Assembly (NCBI RefSeq): GCF_037094495.1
Contig: NZ_CP146612.1
Coordinates: 868,001-932,000 of the forward strand
Direction: 5' to 3'
DNA: 64,000 bases
DNA from: Dehalogenimonas sp. W
Lineage (GTDB): Bacteria; Chloroflexota; Dehalococcoidia; Dehalococcoidales; Dehalococcoidaceae
The position numbers and the translations under genes were made by a program. The notes below the pieces were generated by a model that saw only the letters and a list, made by a program, of their open reading frames with translations, was not told the origin of the DNA and did no database searches. Position 1 is the stretch's first letter. Each line of letters begins with the position of its first letter. This document shows positions 53,548 through 60,101 of the stretch, one piece after another.

Positions 53548-53624
53548 GGGCGGTTAGCTCAGTTGGTTAGAGCACCTGCTTTACACGCAGGGTGTCACAG
53601 GTTCGAGTCCTGTACTGCCCACCA
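53548..53624 (+). tRNA. tRNA-Val (anticodon TAC)
   Basis: Acceptor GGGCGGT / ACTGCCC, anticodon stem CCTGC / GCAGG with loop TTTACAC, T-arm CACAGGTTCGAGTCCTGTA, CCA at 53622-53624. Its 3' end is the left boundary of the island. Confidence 0.97.
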
Positions 53625-53625: not shown

Positions 53626-53954
53626 CCACTTGCAAAAATATAGCAAAAAACTAGCATAAGCTTGATTCATTCTTACGGAATTACCCAGATTACTTCGTTC
53701 TGTCTGTTAAAAATGTTCACCTGTTCATTCATGGGTATATACAGCTAAGACTGAGGGAGATTCAATACTGTTTTCAAACGGTGCTGGTAAATATTTGATT
53801 AATATCCAATCTATTAGCCATCTTTGACGGAGAGACGGGGAGAGTCGAACTTTTTCAGGAACAATATCTGATATCTGTGCTTGTACGGTCATTTAACCTA
53901 TTTGGAGGGACATGCTAAATATTTTTCGGGAAGTGTTGCTCCGGCATGTTGGTT
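53625..53954. other. Island gap between tRNA-Val and the radical SAM gene
   Basis: 330 bases, A/T-rich, no convincing gene. A fragment at about 53829-53850 reads like a decayed tRNA T-arm and acceptor on the minus strand (GTTCGACTCTCCCCG), possibly another integration scar. No terminator hairpin was found for the radical SAM gene, which ends at 53955. Confidence 0.35.
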
Positions 53955-55289
53955 TTATTGAAGTGATTCAACCAGGTGGTCCAAGGTCAAATTTTTGGTG
54001 ATGTAACAGCGATACGGACTAACCTGATCAATTGCCCCGGATTGATTGAGACACCCACCGGCGCAATGGTACCGGCAGAAGCAATCCCGGCATTCACTGA
54101 GGCTATCGATGTTCCTCGATCTAAGTAGAGCGCGAGTTTCAGCGTTGAAAATGAAGTGCCCCGTGTCGTTATCATAGTTGCCGTGGAAAAATATTCCGGC
54201 CTGAGGATCCTGCGGGTCGGTTCTCATATAACAGGCAGTAACCATCCCGGTCGGAGTCACGTTAAAGGCCGGGTCGGTGGCGTAACAATAACTTTTTCGA
54301 ATGGACCCTCCCCGTGCACTACTGAACTCGATTCTAAGATCGTTGTCCCGACCCAACTTCTTGACTGCTCTGAAGGCTTCTAAGAAACGGTCGGCATCCG
54401 GGACATCAAGCTCTTGGCCCCGGCCGTGTTGATAAATTGGCTCGAGAGAAATCGCCTCAAACCCTGGGCGATTGGCCAGAACATCTATTATGCCCGGGAA
54501 GTATTGAAGACTGTCTTCGGTAACCGTGGACGAGATCCAGTACTTTTTACCGATTTTATCGATATAGTCAAAGGTTCTCAGGACATCATCGTAACTACCC
54601 TGCCCGTTACGCTTTGGTCTTAGTCTGTCATGGATTTCTTTTGTACCGTCCCAAGAAATGCAGAATTCATCCACATGTTCTGCCAGCCAGGCCAATCTTT
54701 GTTGGGAGAATACCCCGTTAGTGGTAATGCCGATGTATTTCTCAACGCCTTCCAGTTTAACTTTGGATTCAAAGTACTCTATCGTCGTTTGTACCATAGA
54801 CCAAGCACAGGTCGGTTCGCCGCCGCCATGAAACTGCAGGTGGGCCACAGAGTGGTCTTCAGAGGCGTTTTTAATAATAAGATCTATTGCAGCGCAGGCA
54901 ACGGTCTCGCTCATGGTTTGTGGTGTTTTGTTGTTATGGGAATAACAGTACACGCAATATAAATTACAGACATCAGTAAGAAGCAACCCCACTCGCGTAG
55001 GACGATAATCTGTTGATTGCTGAATATCCGGACTGTCCGGTACCGGTTCTGACGTTAATAAGCCAGCGGTTGATAGTGAATTGATGAATTTTTGGTCCGC
55101 GGAAGTCCTGGGAGTAAAACCCACTCCGTTGAGAGCTGTAATAATGGGTATGGCAGCCTGATTCAGGCTCAAAACCTGATGACTTTTAGGAAAATAGGCT
55201 AAGTGCAGATTCTGATGCTCAAGCAAGAAGCATTTCTCAACAAAACGCCCCGCGCTTTGTCTAACAGACAAGCTTTTCATATGCGACAT
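53955..55289 (-). CDS. Radical SAM/SPASM peptide maturase
   Basis: 444 residues. The N-terminal ~90 residues (HLAYFPKSHQVLSLNQAAIPII ... ) look like a PqqD/RRE-type leader-binding domain. The SAM cluster is CNLYCVYCYS (Cys108, 112, 115), then FHGGGEPT, ITTNG and FCISWDGT. The C-terminal SPASM domain carries the auxiliary-cluster Cys: CYATDPAFNVTPTGMVTACY, then CRDCFCRYHCAGGC and a last YRCY. This layout matches enzymes that cross-link or modify ribosomal peptides. A 38-residue candidate precursor lies 79 bases upstream on the same strand. The class of chemistry (thioether, C-C, C-O, or other) is not predictable. Confidence 0.88.
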   Translation of the reverse strand: MSHMKSLSVRQSAGRFVEKCFLLEHQNLHLAYFPKSHQVLSLNQAAIPIITALNGVGFTPRTSADQKFINSLSTAGLLTSEPVPDSPDIQQSTDYRPTRVGLLLTDVCNLYCVYCYSHNNKTPQTMSETVACAAIDLIIKNASEDHSVAHLQFHGGGEPTCAWSMVQTTIEYFESKVKLEGVEKYIGITTNGVFSQQRLAWLAEHVDEFCISWDGTKEIHDRLRPKRNGQGSYDDVLRTFDYIDKIGKKYWISSTVTEDSLQYFPGIIDVLANRPGFEAISLEPIYQHGRGQELDVPDADRFLEAFRAVKKLGRDNDLRIEFSSARGGSIRKSYCYATDPAFNVTPTGMVTACYMRTDPQDPQAGIFFHGNYDNDTGHFIFNAETRALLRSRNIDSLSECRDCFCRYHCAGGCLNQSGAIDQVSPYRCYITKNLTLDHLVESLQ

Positions 55290-55368
55290 TTATGTTTGAC
55301 TAGAACTGAGAGTTACCTAAAAAGGTGCTCAAATAAATTATTCTTGTGGATCCTCACGCCACCCTATA

Positions 55369-55485
55369 TCAGGGACCTCCAGTAGCATAGCCTTTTGGGT
55401 TAATCCCGGATTTCTTTACTGGGCCAGCCTTGATTACAGCTGGCTTTACGACTGGTTTAATGGGTTTGACGGGTTTCTTTTCCAT
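55369..55485 (-). CDS. Candidate RiPP precursor peptide
   Basis: 38 codons, ATG at 55483-55485, TGA at 55369-55371. Ribosome site GGAGG (55491-55496 region) six bases before the ATG, and a TATAAT box at 55515-55520. The N-terminal part is a Lys/Pro-rich leader (KKPVKPIKPVVKP), and the C-terminus is a short Gly-rich core, GINPKGYATGGP, with one Tyr, one Asn and one Lys as possible cross-link sites. No Cys, so a thioether is unlikely; a Tyr-, Lys- or Asn-based link is more likely. Between it and the maturase gene there is a weak hairpin (ACCT/AGGT with flanking GAG/CTC), which may reduce read-through. No homologue is known to me. Confidence 0.72.
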   Translation of the reverse strand: MEKKPVKPIKPVVKPAVIKAGPVKKSGINPKGYATGGP

Positions 55486-55514
55486 ATCAAGCCTCCATAT
55501 TTGATTCGATACCA

Positions 55515-55520
55515 ATTATA
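55515..55520 (-). promoter_or_regulatory. -10-like box of the RiPP cassette
   Basis: TATAAT on the minus strand, about 30 bases before the precursor ATG. No good -35 was found. Confidence 0.35.
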
Positions 55521-55638
55521 CGCTCCCAATTCAAATGATGCTAGATGAATATGCTAAAAGTCGTAGACCGTCAATGATACTGGGAAGCTGCGTCTTTCGT
55601 ATTATTCAGTCAACTGTGGATAAAGAGGACCAGCATTT

Positions 55639-55878: not shown

Positions 55879-56225
55879 TCTTCAACAATCACTCATTAAC
55901 CCATTAGCTGTTGTTACTTCAAATTAATGCATTATCAGCGGTCACAAAACCCGCAGGGATGGCAGAACTCTCGCTTAATAAGGTCCCTATTCTGTCCAAC
56001 TGATGGGGACCACCTCAGTTGGAGCTTCGTCGGTCATGGGTGGTGGCACTGGATTCTTATTTTGGTTAGAATAATCAGGAACGATGCAGAAGACTAGGCT
56101 TACGGTTCTGCGTATTGACTGTAAGTACCCAGTTTTCTAGCCTCCAAATAACAGTACTGTTCAATAAACAGAATATTTGCTCACTTACGATTGATATTCC
56201 ATTTGTCCATGATAAAATAGTAAAT
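55879..56225. other. Island gap
   Basis: About 350 bases with no clear gene. It may hold the divergent promoters of the RiPP cassette and the nuclease gene. The open frame of the nuclease extends upstream to 56115, but the ATG at 56226 is preferred. No terminator or repeat stands out. Confidence 0.35.
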
Positions 56226-58424
56226 ATGTTAGAAGAATCAAAGGATTTCCATGACAAATTGAAGGTGATGAATCAGAAAGCACATTCTGATGCTGAGGCT
56301 TATTTTAGAGAATTAACAAAGCTAGTGGGTGCGCTGGACCCTGTGAAACTGCTGAGTCAGCTGACATTGACTTTCGGCACGGTACCAGAAGACCAATTTA
56401 ACGATGAAAGTTCCGATGTTCACGAATGGGCGAGATGGCTCGGGTTTGTATCAGGGTACCTCTTAACACGTCCGTACCCTGCTAACGCTCGAAAAGAAGT
56501 TGACGGCAGAGACATCAAGGGCATTGAGGATTTACTGAAACAATATTTTATTTCTATATCACAAAGCCTGATAAGCGATGCCCCAAAGTCCGAAACAGGA
56601 GAAGTTGACGAAGTGGTCAGCCTCGCAAAAAATGATTCTTTTTTTGTTAGAGGAGAGTCATATCCTCATCAGCTGAAAGAAATGGCTTATGATATCTGGA
56701 CTGAGCATGATGAATGGTTTGTTAAAAGTCTCGGGTTTACAATCAACGACGCACTGACTATATCAGAAGCCATAAAGGAGGAATGTAACCGTAGAATAAA
56801 CGATGAAAAAGAATCCTGCAAGGTCCGAGCGCATCAGAATGTTGATGAATTAATCAAGCGTGGGGAAGCAAAGGAACATGACCGGAAGAATTTAGAGGCT
56901 AGTATGGGCTGCTACTACTATTTCGGAAACTCGGACGCTATTTTATCATTCACTTTAGATGAGATGGCCAGTTTCTCGGGTTTTCCAAAGGATAGATGCG
57001 AAAGGTATTTAAAAAGGTTAAGTCAAGGATTTGGATACAGAAACAAAAATCATCTTGACACATTCAATGATCCTCACTTGGCCCCTTGGGATTACAACAC
57101 AATTTATGAACGGCCTATAGTGTGCCACGCCGAGAAGTATTTCATCCCAGTTCCCTCTGTGTTGAATGAAGTACTTCTTCACACATTTTTTTATGATATG
57201 ATTGCGGACTCGAATTATTGGAAAAAGAATGGAGAAAAGAAATACGGGAAATGTCTGGAGCAGAAGACTGCTGAATTATTAAGAAGGGTTTTCCCACCTA
57301 GGGAAGTCTTGCTTAATCCGAAGTATCCGGGAGGGAACGAACTATGCGATGTTCTCGTTCTACACGATAGGAATGTCTTTATCGTTCAATGTAAAACGAA
57401 GCGATTAAGGTATGAGTCCAAGATTGGCAAAGACTCGCAGTTGATAAAGGATGATCTCAACAAAGCAGTAGCTGAGTCGTTTGAACAAGGTAGCCGTGCG
57501 AGGAAATATTTATCGAATAATCAGCCCACTAAGATACAGATTGAAAACGGTATCATAGAAATTGACTCCAAACAAATATCTAAACTGTTTCTTCTTAGCG
57601 TCACGTTAGGCAGTTACCCGCACCTGATCACCAGATTGGCAAACATCAACAAAACACTTAATCTGTTTTCTGATAATCAGTATCCCTGGGCTGTTTCACT
57701 ATTTGACTTGGGAGTCTTAACAGACCTAATTGAATCTCCTTCTAGTTTCGTTCACTACGCCATGCGTAGAATGGCCATGGAGCGAACGAGATTTGACATT
57801 TTTGGCGATGAAATTGATATGCTTGGGTATTACTTCTCTCAAGGGTTGGTTTTCGAAACGGAACAGTACAAGAAAACGAATGCCCTTCTTTTGAATGGAT
57901 TCTCCGACAACATAGACCTTTATATGTTTGAGAAACACGAGCTTGGAAGAAACCCTCAGAAACCGGTGATGACGGTACCTCCCAAGTTTTGGGAATACGT
58001 ACGGTCTATCGAGGAACTGAAATCACCTTACAAGACTGATTGTGCAGTTCGGCTACTGGATTGTGACTATAGATTGAAAGAAGCTATTGTGCAAGCGTCT
58101 GAGAAAATAAGGGGGCAAACGAAGTCTGATGGTCTCCTGCATACTCTATCCATGGCCAAGGAAGACCAAAGTGTAGGATTTTCATTCACGACAATGCATG
58201 TGGAAAGTCTTGAAGAGTTGTACAGAAAAGTCCTCACATTTAGCAGTATGAAAAAATATGTGACTAGATGCAAGGAATGGGTGGGACTAGGGTGGAATAA
58301 GAATAGTGGTAAAGAAGTGGATGTCGCCGTATTCCTATCGTTTGACTGGCAGGAAGATTCTGTCATAGCCAAATTGGCTGCCGAGAATTTAAAGCCTGGA
58401 GAAATGCTAAATCCTGAAGGTTAA
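56226..58424 (+). CDS. Large protein with PD-(D/E)XK nuclease-like core, unknown role
   Basis: 732 residues from the ATG at 56226 (the frame is open from 56115). Around residues 385-430 it has GGNELCDVLVLHDRNVFIVQCKTKRLRYE. This fits a restriction-type nuclease core: an Asp, a beta strand, and the Q-C-K in place of E-x-K, as in Mrr/NERD-like enzymes. Flanks are helical, with no helicase, SMC or methylase motif. A/T-rich codon use compared with the chromosome, inside the tRNA-bounded island. A phage- or plasmid-defence role is plausible but not shown. No ribosome site is obvious. Confidence 0.7.
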   Translation: MLEESKDFHDKLKVMNQKAHSDAEAYFRELTKLVGALDPVKLLSQLTLTFGTVPEDQFNDESSDVHEWARWLGFVSGYLLTRPYPANARKEVDGRDIKGIEDLLKQYFISISQSLISDAPKSETGEVDEVVSLAKNDSFFVRGESYPHQLKEMAYDIWTEHDEWFVKSLGFTINDALTISEAIKEECNRRINDEKESCKVRAHQNVDELIKRGEAKEHDRKNLEASMGCYYYFGNSDAILSFTLDEMASFSGFPKDRCERYLKRLSQGFGYRNKNHLDTFNDPHLAPWDYNTIYERPIVCHAEKYFIPVPSVLNEVLLHTFFYDMIADSNYWKKNGEKKYGKCLEQKTAELLRRVFPPREVLLNPKYPGGNELCDVLVLHDRNVFIVQCKTKRLRYESKIGKDSQLIKDDLNKAVAESFEQGSRARKYLSNNQPTKIQIENGIIEIDSKQISKLFLLSVTLGSYPHLITRLANINKTLNLFSDNQYPWAVSLFDLGVLTDLIESPSSFVHYAMRRMAMERTRFDIFGDEIDMLGYYFSQGLVFETEQYKKTNALLLNGFSDNIDLYMFEKHELGRNPQKPVMTVPPKFWEYVRSIEELKSPYKTDCAVRLLDCDYRLKEAIVQASEKIRGQTKSDGLLHTLSMAKEDQSVGFSFTTMHVESLEELYRKVLTFSSMKKYVTRCKEWVGLGWNKNSGKEVDVAVFLSFDWQEDSVIAKLAAENLKPGEMLNPEG

Positions 58425-59167: not shown

Positions 59168-59815
59168 TTAAAAAGAAGCGGGCTTCTGCCCAACAATCAC
59201 ATAAAACCCGGCGCCGGCATGATAACCGGTACGGGGCACTTCCTCCTCTGTGACTTGTTCCGGATCCTGAAAAAGTGTGGAAACCATCCTGTCAAAAGAA
59301 AAGCCGGCTTCGAGCATCATTTCAAGGACGCCAAGGAGACCAAAGAAGGTTGCTCGTTTGTAAATAGCATGCCCCGCTGCTTTTTTGTCCTGATATTGCC
59401 GGCCCCATCGGCTATTATTGGGGATCATCGCGATTACCACTTTGCCGCCGGGGATTAAAATTCGTTGGGCTTCTCTAAGAACCTTGATTGGTGATTGGAC
59501 GAAACACAAGGTTAATATCAGAAAGACTGCACCGTAGGACGCCACATCAAACAAATGGTCTTCGCCTCCGGCCTGAAAAACCTGGACGCCACGGCGCTTG
59601 GCCAGCGCAAGCAGCCTGGTGGAAGGGTCTATACCCTTGTCAATTCCAAGCGCCTGTGCGAAGCGCCCGCTGCCGACGCCAATCTCCAGCCATGATCCGG
59701 GCAGATCGGGGAGAACGAGTTGCAAGGCCGCAAGTTCGGAGGCAAAAATCAACTTGCCCTCGCCATCAAACCAGTCATCGTAAGCCTCAGCGAAAGGATC
59801 AAAGGGCGAAACCAT
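59168..59815 (-). CDS. Class I SAM-dependent methyltransferase
   Basis: 215 residues from the ATG at 59815, five bases after the J-domain stop; an ATG at 59833 is an alternative. FAEAYDDWFDGEGK, SAM motif SWLEIGVGSGRFAQALG, GGEDHLFD, and LREAQRILIPGGKVVIAMI. Substrate unknown. Last gene of the arsR-led operon; right of the island boundary. Confidence 0.85.
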   Translation of the reverse strand: MVSPFDPFAEAYDDWFDGEGKLIFASELAALQLVLPDLPGSWLEIGVGSGRFAQALGIDKGIDPSTRLLALAKRRGVQVFQAGGEDHLFDVASYGAVFLILTLCFVQSPIKVLREAQRILIPGGKVVIAMIPNNSRWGRQYQDKKAAGHAIYKRATFFGLLGVLEMMLEAGFSFDRMVSTLFQDPEQVTEEEVPRTGYHAGAGFYVIVGQKPASF

Positions 59816-59819
59816 GCCT

Positions 59820-60101
59820 TCAGAAGCCACCATCATAGAACCGCTTAAGGTAATCCTGGTAGGGATCACACCTTAACACTGTGCCCTCATCAAAGCTATA
59901 GCGGTAGCTTTCAACGTAATCCATCAAGATCTTAAAGGCATGATTGACCTTCTTCATGGCCTCTCCGTCATCGCCGGAGGTCTTATCGGGATGATGAAGG
60001 TGTGAAAGGTGCCGATAGGCACCCTTAATCTCAGACATTGTTGCCGTCTCGCTTAAACCCAGAGTCTTTCGGGCGGAATCTATTGTCGTAAAGTCAGCCA
60101 T
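59820..60101 (-). CDS. J-domain (DnaJ-like) protein
   Basis: 93 residues, a single J domain: KTLGLSETATMSEIKGAYRHLSHLHHPDKTSGDDGEAMKKVNHAFKIL with the HPD tripeptide. No zinc or C-terminal domain, so it would recruit Hsp70 to a specific client rather than act as a general DnaJ. It starts 17 bases after the membrane selenoprotein gene; the client could be a product of this operon (inference). Confidence 0.88.
   Translation of the reverse strand: MADFTTIDSARKTLGLSETATMSEIKGAYRHLSHLHHPDKTSGDDGEAMKKVNHAFKILMDYVESYRYSFDEGTVLRCDPYQDYLKRFYDGGF

Follow-up and report, generated by a model that had tools for sequence, protein, structure and literature searches.

A conserved 38-residue peptide gene and its SPASM maturase neighbour as a probable minimal RiPP cassette in Dehalogenimonas

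The SCIFF maturase family (TIGR03974), with CteB (PDB 5wgg/5why) as a member of solved structure, combines an N-terminal region and a radical SAM core with a seven-Cys SPASM motif of the form CX9-15GX4C-gap-CX2CX5CX3C-gap-C (PMC6231123), and its peptide has six Cys. The PapB-type ranthipeptide maturases (NF047865) share this architecture and crosslink Cys to Asp/Glu. SPASM enzymes further include the TvgB/TigE cyclopropylglycine synthases, whose cores carry a TVG/TIG repeat. TvgB converts the Val of TVGG to cyclopropylglycine within a Cys-free, Gly-rich core and thus sets a precedent for SPASM action on such cores; an oxygenase and transporters are also encoded in TVG clusters (PMC9062424). 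The cyclophane-forming radical SAM RiPPs (GrrM/OscB, FxsB, YhhB, AmcB) likewise pair a small peptide with a SPASM enzyme, often in two or three genes.

Here we describe a gene pair from Dehalogenimonas sp. W, whose 1.77-Mb genome is a single contig (family genomes 1.4-2.1 Mb); the window, i.e. the whole stretch of DNA that was analysed, spans 64,000 nucleotides. We consider it probable that the pair is a minimal RiPP cassette in which a precursor peptide is recognised and modified by a SPASM enzyme. A sequence-only reading of this DNA had proposed a short gene with a good ribosome site and a TATAAT box, lying 79 nt before a radical SAM/SPASM gene on the same strand, and the gene, its ribosome site and the exact gap were all recovered (Table 1). 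The TATAAT box is present and, like the ribosome site, kept in three genomes (the window genome, G004 and G010), but no -35 partner was recognisable in a promoter scan. Translation starts at an ATG at 55485 on the minus strand; a longer, TTG-initiated peptide (48 aa, from 55515) was rejected because the ATG with its GGAGG is the conserved start. The maturase also has an alternative start at 55280 (MKS...), which is the one common to all three genomes. No attenuator hairpin in the 79-nt spacer gave a signal above shuffles, and a riboswitch or other RNA family was rejected, with only two tRNAs found.

Table 1. Coordinates of the features discussed (window positions unless another locus is named).
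Feature	Coordinates	Strand	Remarks
38-codon precursor peptide gene	55369..55485	-	encodes MEKKPVKPIKPVVKPAVIKAGPVKKSGINPKGYATGGP plus stop; frame conserved, variation mostly at third positions
Ribosome-binding site GGAGG	55492..55496	-	6 nt before the ATG; identical in window genome, G004 and G010
Putative -10 box TATAAT	55515..55520	-	identical in window genome, G004 and G010
79-nt spacer, peptide stop to annotated maturase start	55290..55368	-	no structure above chance
444-aa radical SAM/SPASM maturase	53955..55289	-	adjoins the peptide gene downstream
N-terminal beta-beta-beta-alpha-alpha region (residues 17-75)	55065..55241	-	RRE-like by topology only
Radical SAM motif CNLYCVYC (C108, C112, C115)	54945..54968	-	CX3CX2C present
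SPASM seven-Cys motif	54006..54287	-	C335, G348, C353, C400-X2-C403-X5-C409-X3-C413, C428; extra C405
Block common to window and G004	53860..55583		81% DNA identity
Block common to window and G010	53925..55547		DNA similarity
tRNA-Val adjoining the cassette	53548..53624	+	context only, outside the conserved pair
IS21-type element (IstA-like transposase and IstB)	L010:6200-8780		splits the G010 maturase; precursor frame intact

The peptide has counterparts in G004 (MEKKPVKPIKPVVKPAVIKAGPVKKSEINPKGAATAGP) and G010 (MEKKPVKPVKPVVKPAVIKAGPVKKSGINPKGIATSGP), both directly upstream of the orthologous maturase and each 92% identical to the window copy. The three sequences are invariant at 34 of 38 positions and differ at 9 (I/V), 27 (G/E), 33 (Y/A/I) and 36 (G/A/S), which leaves a conserved tail of INPKG-x-AT-x-GP. 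The core proposed earlier, GINPKGYATGGP, therefore holds in part: Cys is absent from all three precursors as stated, but G27 (E), Y33 (A/I) and G36 (A/S) are not conserved. Third codon positions account for 15 of the 21 variable DNA sites across the three genomes (binomial P=4e-4 against 1/3), and indels, of which several lie just outside the 117-nt frame on both flanks, are absent within it, so that the 38-codon frame persists intact in both relatives. Between the window and G004 copies, residues 1-32 show a dN of 0.014 and a dS of 0.58, i.e. a leader dN/dS near 0.02, against 0.11 and 0.76 for the maturase, and the leader is thus more constrained than the enzyme; residues 33-38 give 0.33 and 0.40, over six codons, a number too small for firm conclusions, and the remaining two genome pairs follow the same pattern. 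Judged by these rates, the leader is under strong purifying selection and the core varies mainly at positions 33 and 36. A chance reading frame, which a length of 38 codons, under the usual cut-offs, might suggest, has next to no probability and was ruled out by this conservation: the third-position bias, the indels present in both flanks and absent inside, the low leader dN/dS and the conserved ribosome site and TATAAT all speak against it. The 38-residue peptide gene is confirmed as a real gene, and its product matched no NCBIfam or Pfam model.

Among the eight genomes of the genus that were examined, the maturase occurs in two besides that of the window, with identities to the window enzyme of 81% in G004 and 73-86% over two pieces in G010, and the pair is absent from the other five. 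In G010, an insertion that carries an IstA-like transposase and IstB interrupts the maturase at about codon 133, and this copy is therefore presumably inactive; the sample behind the pair is thus three genomes of one genus, with one of the three maturases split by an IS21-type element. No other DNA similarity to the window exists within 13-16 kb around the G004 and G010 copies, and the block borders coincide with the peptide promoter and the maturase end. The flanks are tRNA-Val, MazG and a 769-aa protein on the other strand in the window; a LOG-like protein, a HicB-family protein with a small partner ORF and a UPF0489 protein in G004; and an HD-GYP-type response regulator, an unclassified 112-aa ORF and a radical SAM protein in G010. 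MazG orthologues are found in all genomes but lie distant from the cassette in G004 and G010. Peptide and maturase hence occur as a unit in three unrelated contexts, with similarity stopping at the cassette borders and a similar short gene standing beside the homologous maturases of both relatives.

Wider searches returned the same three genomes. Across 156 genomes of the order (E<=1e-30) and 294 of the class (E 1e-45) the pair was found in the window genome, G004 and G010 only, and 400 genomes of the phylum added only remote relatives (33% identity or less); a scan of genome contigs yielded no more than three remote loci, about 30% identical. At significant E the peptide turned up nowhere else, plasmids included, and viral contigs held no relatives. 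Enzymes in plasmid and phage collections reach 23-31% identity, and those from plasmids that were inspected are parts of other systems. Within the family, peptide and maturase thus co-occur, both in the same three genomes and neither elsewhere at significant E. This distribution bears on the reading of the peptide as a small basic protein, such as a regulator or a nucleic-acid-binding tail, that shares only a promoter with an enzyme modifying something else. Its composition (pI >10, nine Lys and seven Pro) is compatible with such a role, and the substrate relation of peptide to enzyme is something we infer; yet the two genes are paired in unrelated contexts and both absent elsewhere, and the combination of a frozen leader with a tail that varies at two positions is what RiPP precursors typically show, so we regard this reading as quite improbable.

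Several features of the surroundings are recorded here in their own right. Genes beyond tRNA-Val, such as 56115-58424 and 59168-59869, are missing from related genomes, which suggests that this side is a variable region; no second copy of the tRNA-Val end, as expected of an att-site duplication, occurs within the window. The 769-aa protein (56115-58424, plus strand) weakly resembles the GapS1 anti-phage family, at 37.5 bits against a cut-off of 320, and contains a NERD-like nuclease region. It is absent as a whole from the genus's other seven genomes, among which G010 has a match limited to 42 C-terminal residues; it is possibly the product of a defence gene adjoining the cassette.

A SPASM Cys set had been claimed for the maturase, which indeed carries the complete seven-Cys SPASM motif; the residues of this motif do not vary across an alignment that includes seven remote relatives. 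The Pfam Radical_SAM model scores 49.7 bits, over its cut-off of 29.5, and the SPASM model 18, just under its cut-off of 21.5. The leading NCBIfam matches are all peptide maturases, and every score among the matches listed is far below the family cut-off: 131 bits against 425 for the SCIFF model (about 23% identity), 124 against 340 for PapB, the second best curated family, and 123 against 519 for a nif11-like maturase, with the cut-offs of the models for GrrM/OscB, FxsB, YhhB and AmcB likewise well above what this enzyme reaches. None of the matches listed places it above a curated SCIFF, ranthipeptide or sactipeptide cut-off. By sequence the closest solved and characterised enzyme is CteB (E=1.4e-29), which makes thioethers, whereas the Cys-free peptide here cannot form them, lacking the six Cys of the SCIFF peptide and the Cys that PapB crosslinks. 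Ahead of C335, where fully ligated SPASM enzymes have their fourth ligand, the maturase contains no additional Cys, and the same is evident in CteB; by this comparison, auxiliary cluster I may have an open site (PMC6231123). The extra C405 creates a CFC in the SPASM region (C403-F-C405, 54075-54083), a feature also seen in several remote relatives (CFCRYHC, CFCYWSC) and not in CteB, and it is a possible alternative cluster ligand.

An AlphaFold2 model of the full maturase (pLDDT 71, pTM 0.75) aligns best with CteB (residues 16 to 444, Z 26, rmsd 4.5, 377 residues), the closest solved enzyme by model too, in an alignment that begins within the N-terminal region. An RRE-like part had been assigned to this region, and the full model lends that assignment topological support, with three strands and two helices in the order expected of an RRE. 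The isolated domain, however, has no Pfam match and models with low confidence (pLDDT 56), so its fold search, where nothing was significant and CteB was the top row at E 0.17, says nothing firm; its profile found only low-complexity-like matches to designed helical repeats among PDB sequences. An RRE at the maturase N-terminus is hence plausible, not proven.

Which chemistry such an enzyme might perform can be narrowed from the three precursors, and canonical thioethers or cyclophanes are unlikely as products. Thioethers of the SCIFF, ranthipeptide or sactipeptide type were ruled out because the peptide has no Cys. To our knowledge, cyclophane-forming radical SAM RiPPs depend on an aromatic core residue that is conserved, and the only aromatic here, Tyr33, is replaced by Ala in G004 and by Ile in G010, so a cyclophane or a Tyr-based excision is unlikely as a shared reaction. 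Spliceotide-type (PlpXY) RiPPs have a conserved Tyr-Gly excision site, which is missing here, where the variable Tyr33 is followed by Ala. A TIG motif in the core is a feature of TigE-type cyclopropyl synthase RiPPs, and no TVG or TIG occurs in the INPKG-x-AT-x-GP core of any of the three precursors. The conserved tail thus agrees with no customary crosslink chemistry; the sequence-only reading had matched the core to no RiPP class that it could name.

A chemical sub-case of the RiPP reading, which predicts a different product, is that the enzyme changes a single aliphatic residue without any crosslink, for example by forming methylcyclopropylglycine from Ile28 in the manner of TvgB/TigE. TigE (8vpo), which we take to be a cyclopropyl synthase, is the second full-length structural match of the model (residues 17 to 444, N-terminal region included; Z 22.3, 367 residues), TvgB acts on a Cys-free, Gly-rich core, and Ile28 is invariant in the three precursors. 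However, by sequence the enzyme is only weakly similar to TigE (E=1.3e-4) compared with CteB, and Ile28 is followed by Asn-Pro in a core devoid of TVG/TIG, so that this outcome seems unlikely. A cofactor-like role can be weighed on similar grounds: the peptide could be a source of an intracellular redox cofactor or signal, as PqqA and MftA are, with an excised short C-terminal fragment as product. MftC and PqqE are SPASM enzymes as well, the modified residues would sit at the conserved C-terminal end, and no exporter is present; but none of the three genomes has recognisable cofactor genes close to the pair, the cassette is a patchily distributed accessory element that five of eight genus genomes lack, and the mycofactocin and PQQ maturase models are absent from the best 25 NCBIfam matches, which together make it very improbable.

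The minimal RiPP cassette remains our best explanation of the conserved pair, with its complete SPASM motif and a peptide without family match, as the earlier reading had proposed; leader binding, modification, the modified site and function are what we infer in the following. The Lys/Pro-rich leader (about residues 1-26) would be recognised by the SPASM enzyme, probably through its N-terminal RRE-like region, after which SAM would be cleaved at the radical cluster and hydrogen abstracted from a residue within the conserved tail, with two auxiliary iron-sulfur clusters helping to complete an oxidation or crosslink. The change might be placed at the invariant I28, N29, K31, T35 or P38, with positions 33 and 36 apparently free to vary. 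Since the precursors have neither Cys nor a common aromatic residue, the product is most likely a carbon-carbon, carbon-oxygen or carbon-nitrogen bond, or a change inside one residue, and any single chemistry is much less probable than the RiPP reading as such. No transporter or protease is linked to the pair, in agreement with what had been noted, and leader removal and export, if they occur, would depend on enzymes encoded elsewhere; all three genomes do encode a generic M16 peptidase at another place, which proves nothing. The cassette does comprise two genes only, but its minimal size, stressed before, is not unusual, because many obvious radical SAM RiPP pathways have two or three genes (PMC9062424). 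No description of this peptide was found in open papers on the genus, the class or radical SAM RiPPs. By these comparisons, the cassette size is already known, and the precursor matches no family model or open-paper description. As a serious but tentative possibility, the pair may represent a novel subclass of RiPPs whose SPASM enzyme introduces a crosslink or an oxidation into an INPKG-x-AT-x-GP core without Cys or a required aromatic, e.g. via Lys31 or Thr35, in a two-gene cassette with patchy occurrence among small-genome Dehalogenimonas-type Chloroflexota.

The remote SPASM enzymes of Chloroflexota and Acidobacteria (L006, L007, L008 and L030) are about 24-31% identical and have the same Cys spacing. 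In L006, L008 and L030 (Chlorohelix) the enzyme adjoins larger proteins with Cys-rich CTC-type tails, e.g. CTCDTVCTCDTVCTC, and these are therefore different systems from the pair described here; the 38-residue peptide has no relative at these loci. Such proteins (L008:4852-5733, with L008:1977-9734, L006:7320-8666 and L030:3543-3899) have an SH3-like, WD40 or other N-terminal part and stand beside SPASM enzymes, of which L008 has several. The arrangement resembles a RiPP core fused to a larger protein, and the multi-rSAM Asp-Cys cluster of an earlier account (PMC9062424) may be its counterpart. Separately, plasmids of Edwardsiella and Salmonella encode 57-59-residue peptides with EQEGNFEFLCCRGG... 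near the end (L024:5295-5474 and L025:5166-5339), adjoining a SPASM enzyme, an ABC transporter and an S8 peptidase, in an uncharacterised RiPP cluster that looks related, has a CC motif and is present in two genera.

If the 38-residue peptide is modified, a SPASM reaction would take place on a core without sulfur and without a required aromatic ring, and the product would then belong neither to the thioether nor to the cyclophane class, the dominant ones in the SPASM enzyme family. Length cut-offs hide precursors of this size, and the two-gene format makes the cassette easy to test. For the organisms themselves, the finding means that members of a small-genome genus have a RiPP-like cassette in common that sits at different places in their chromosomes.
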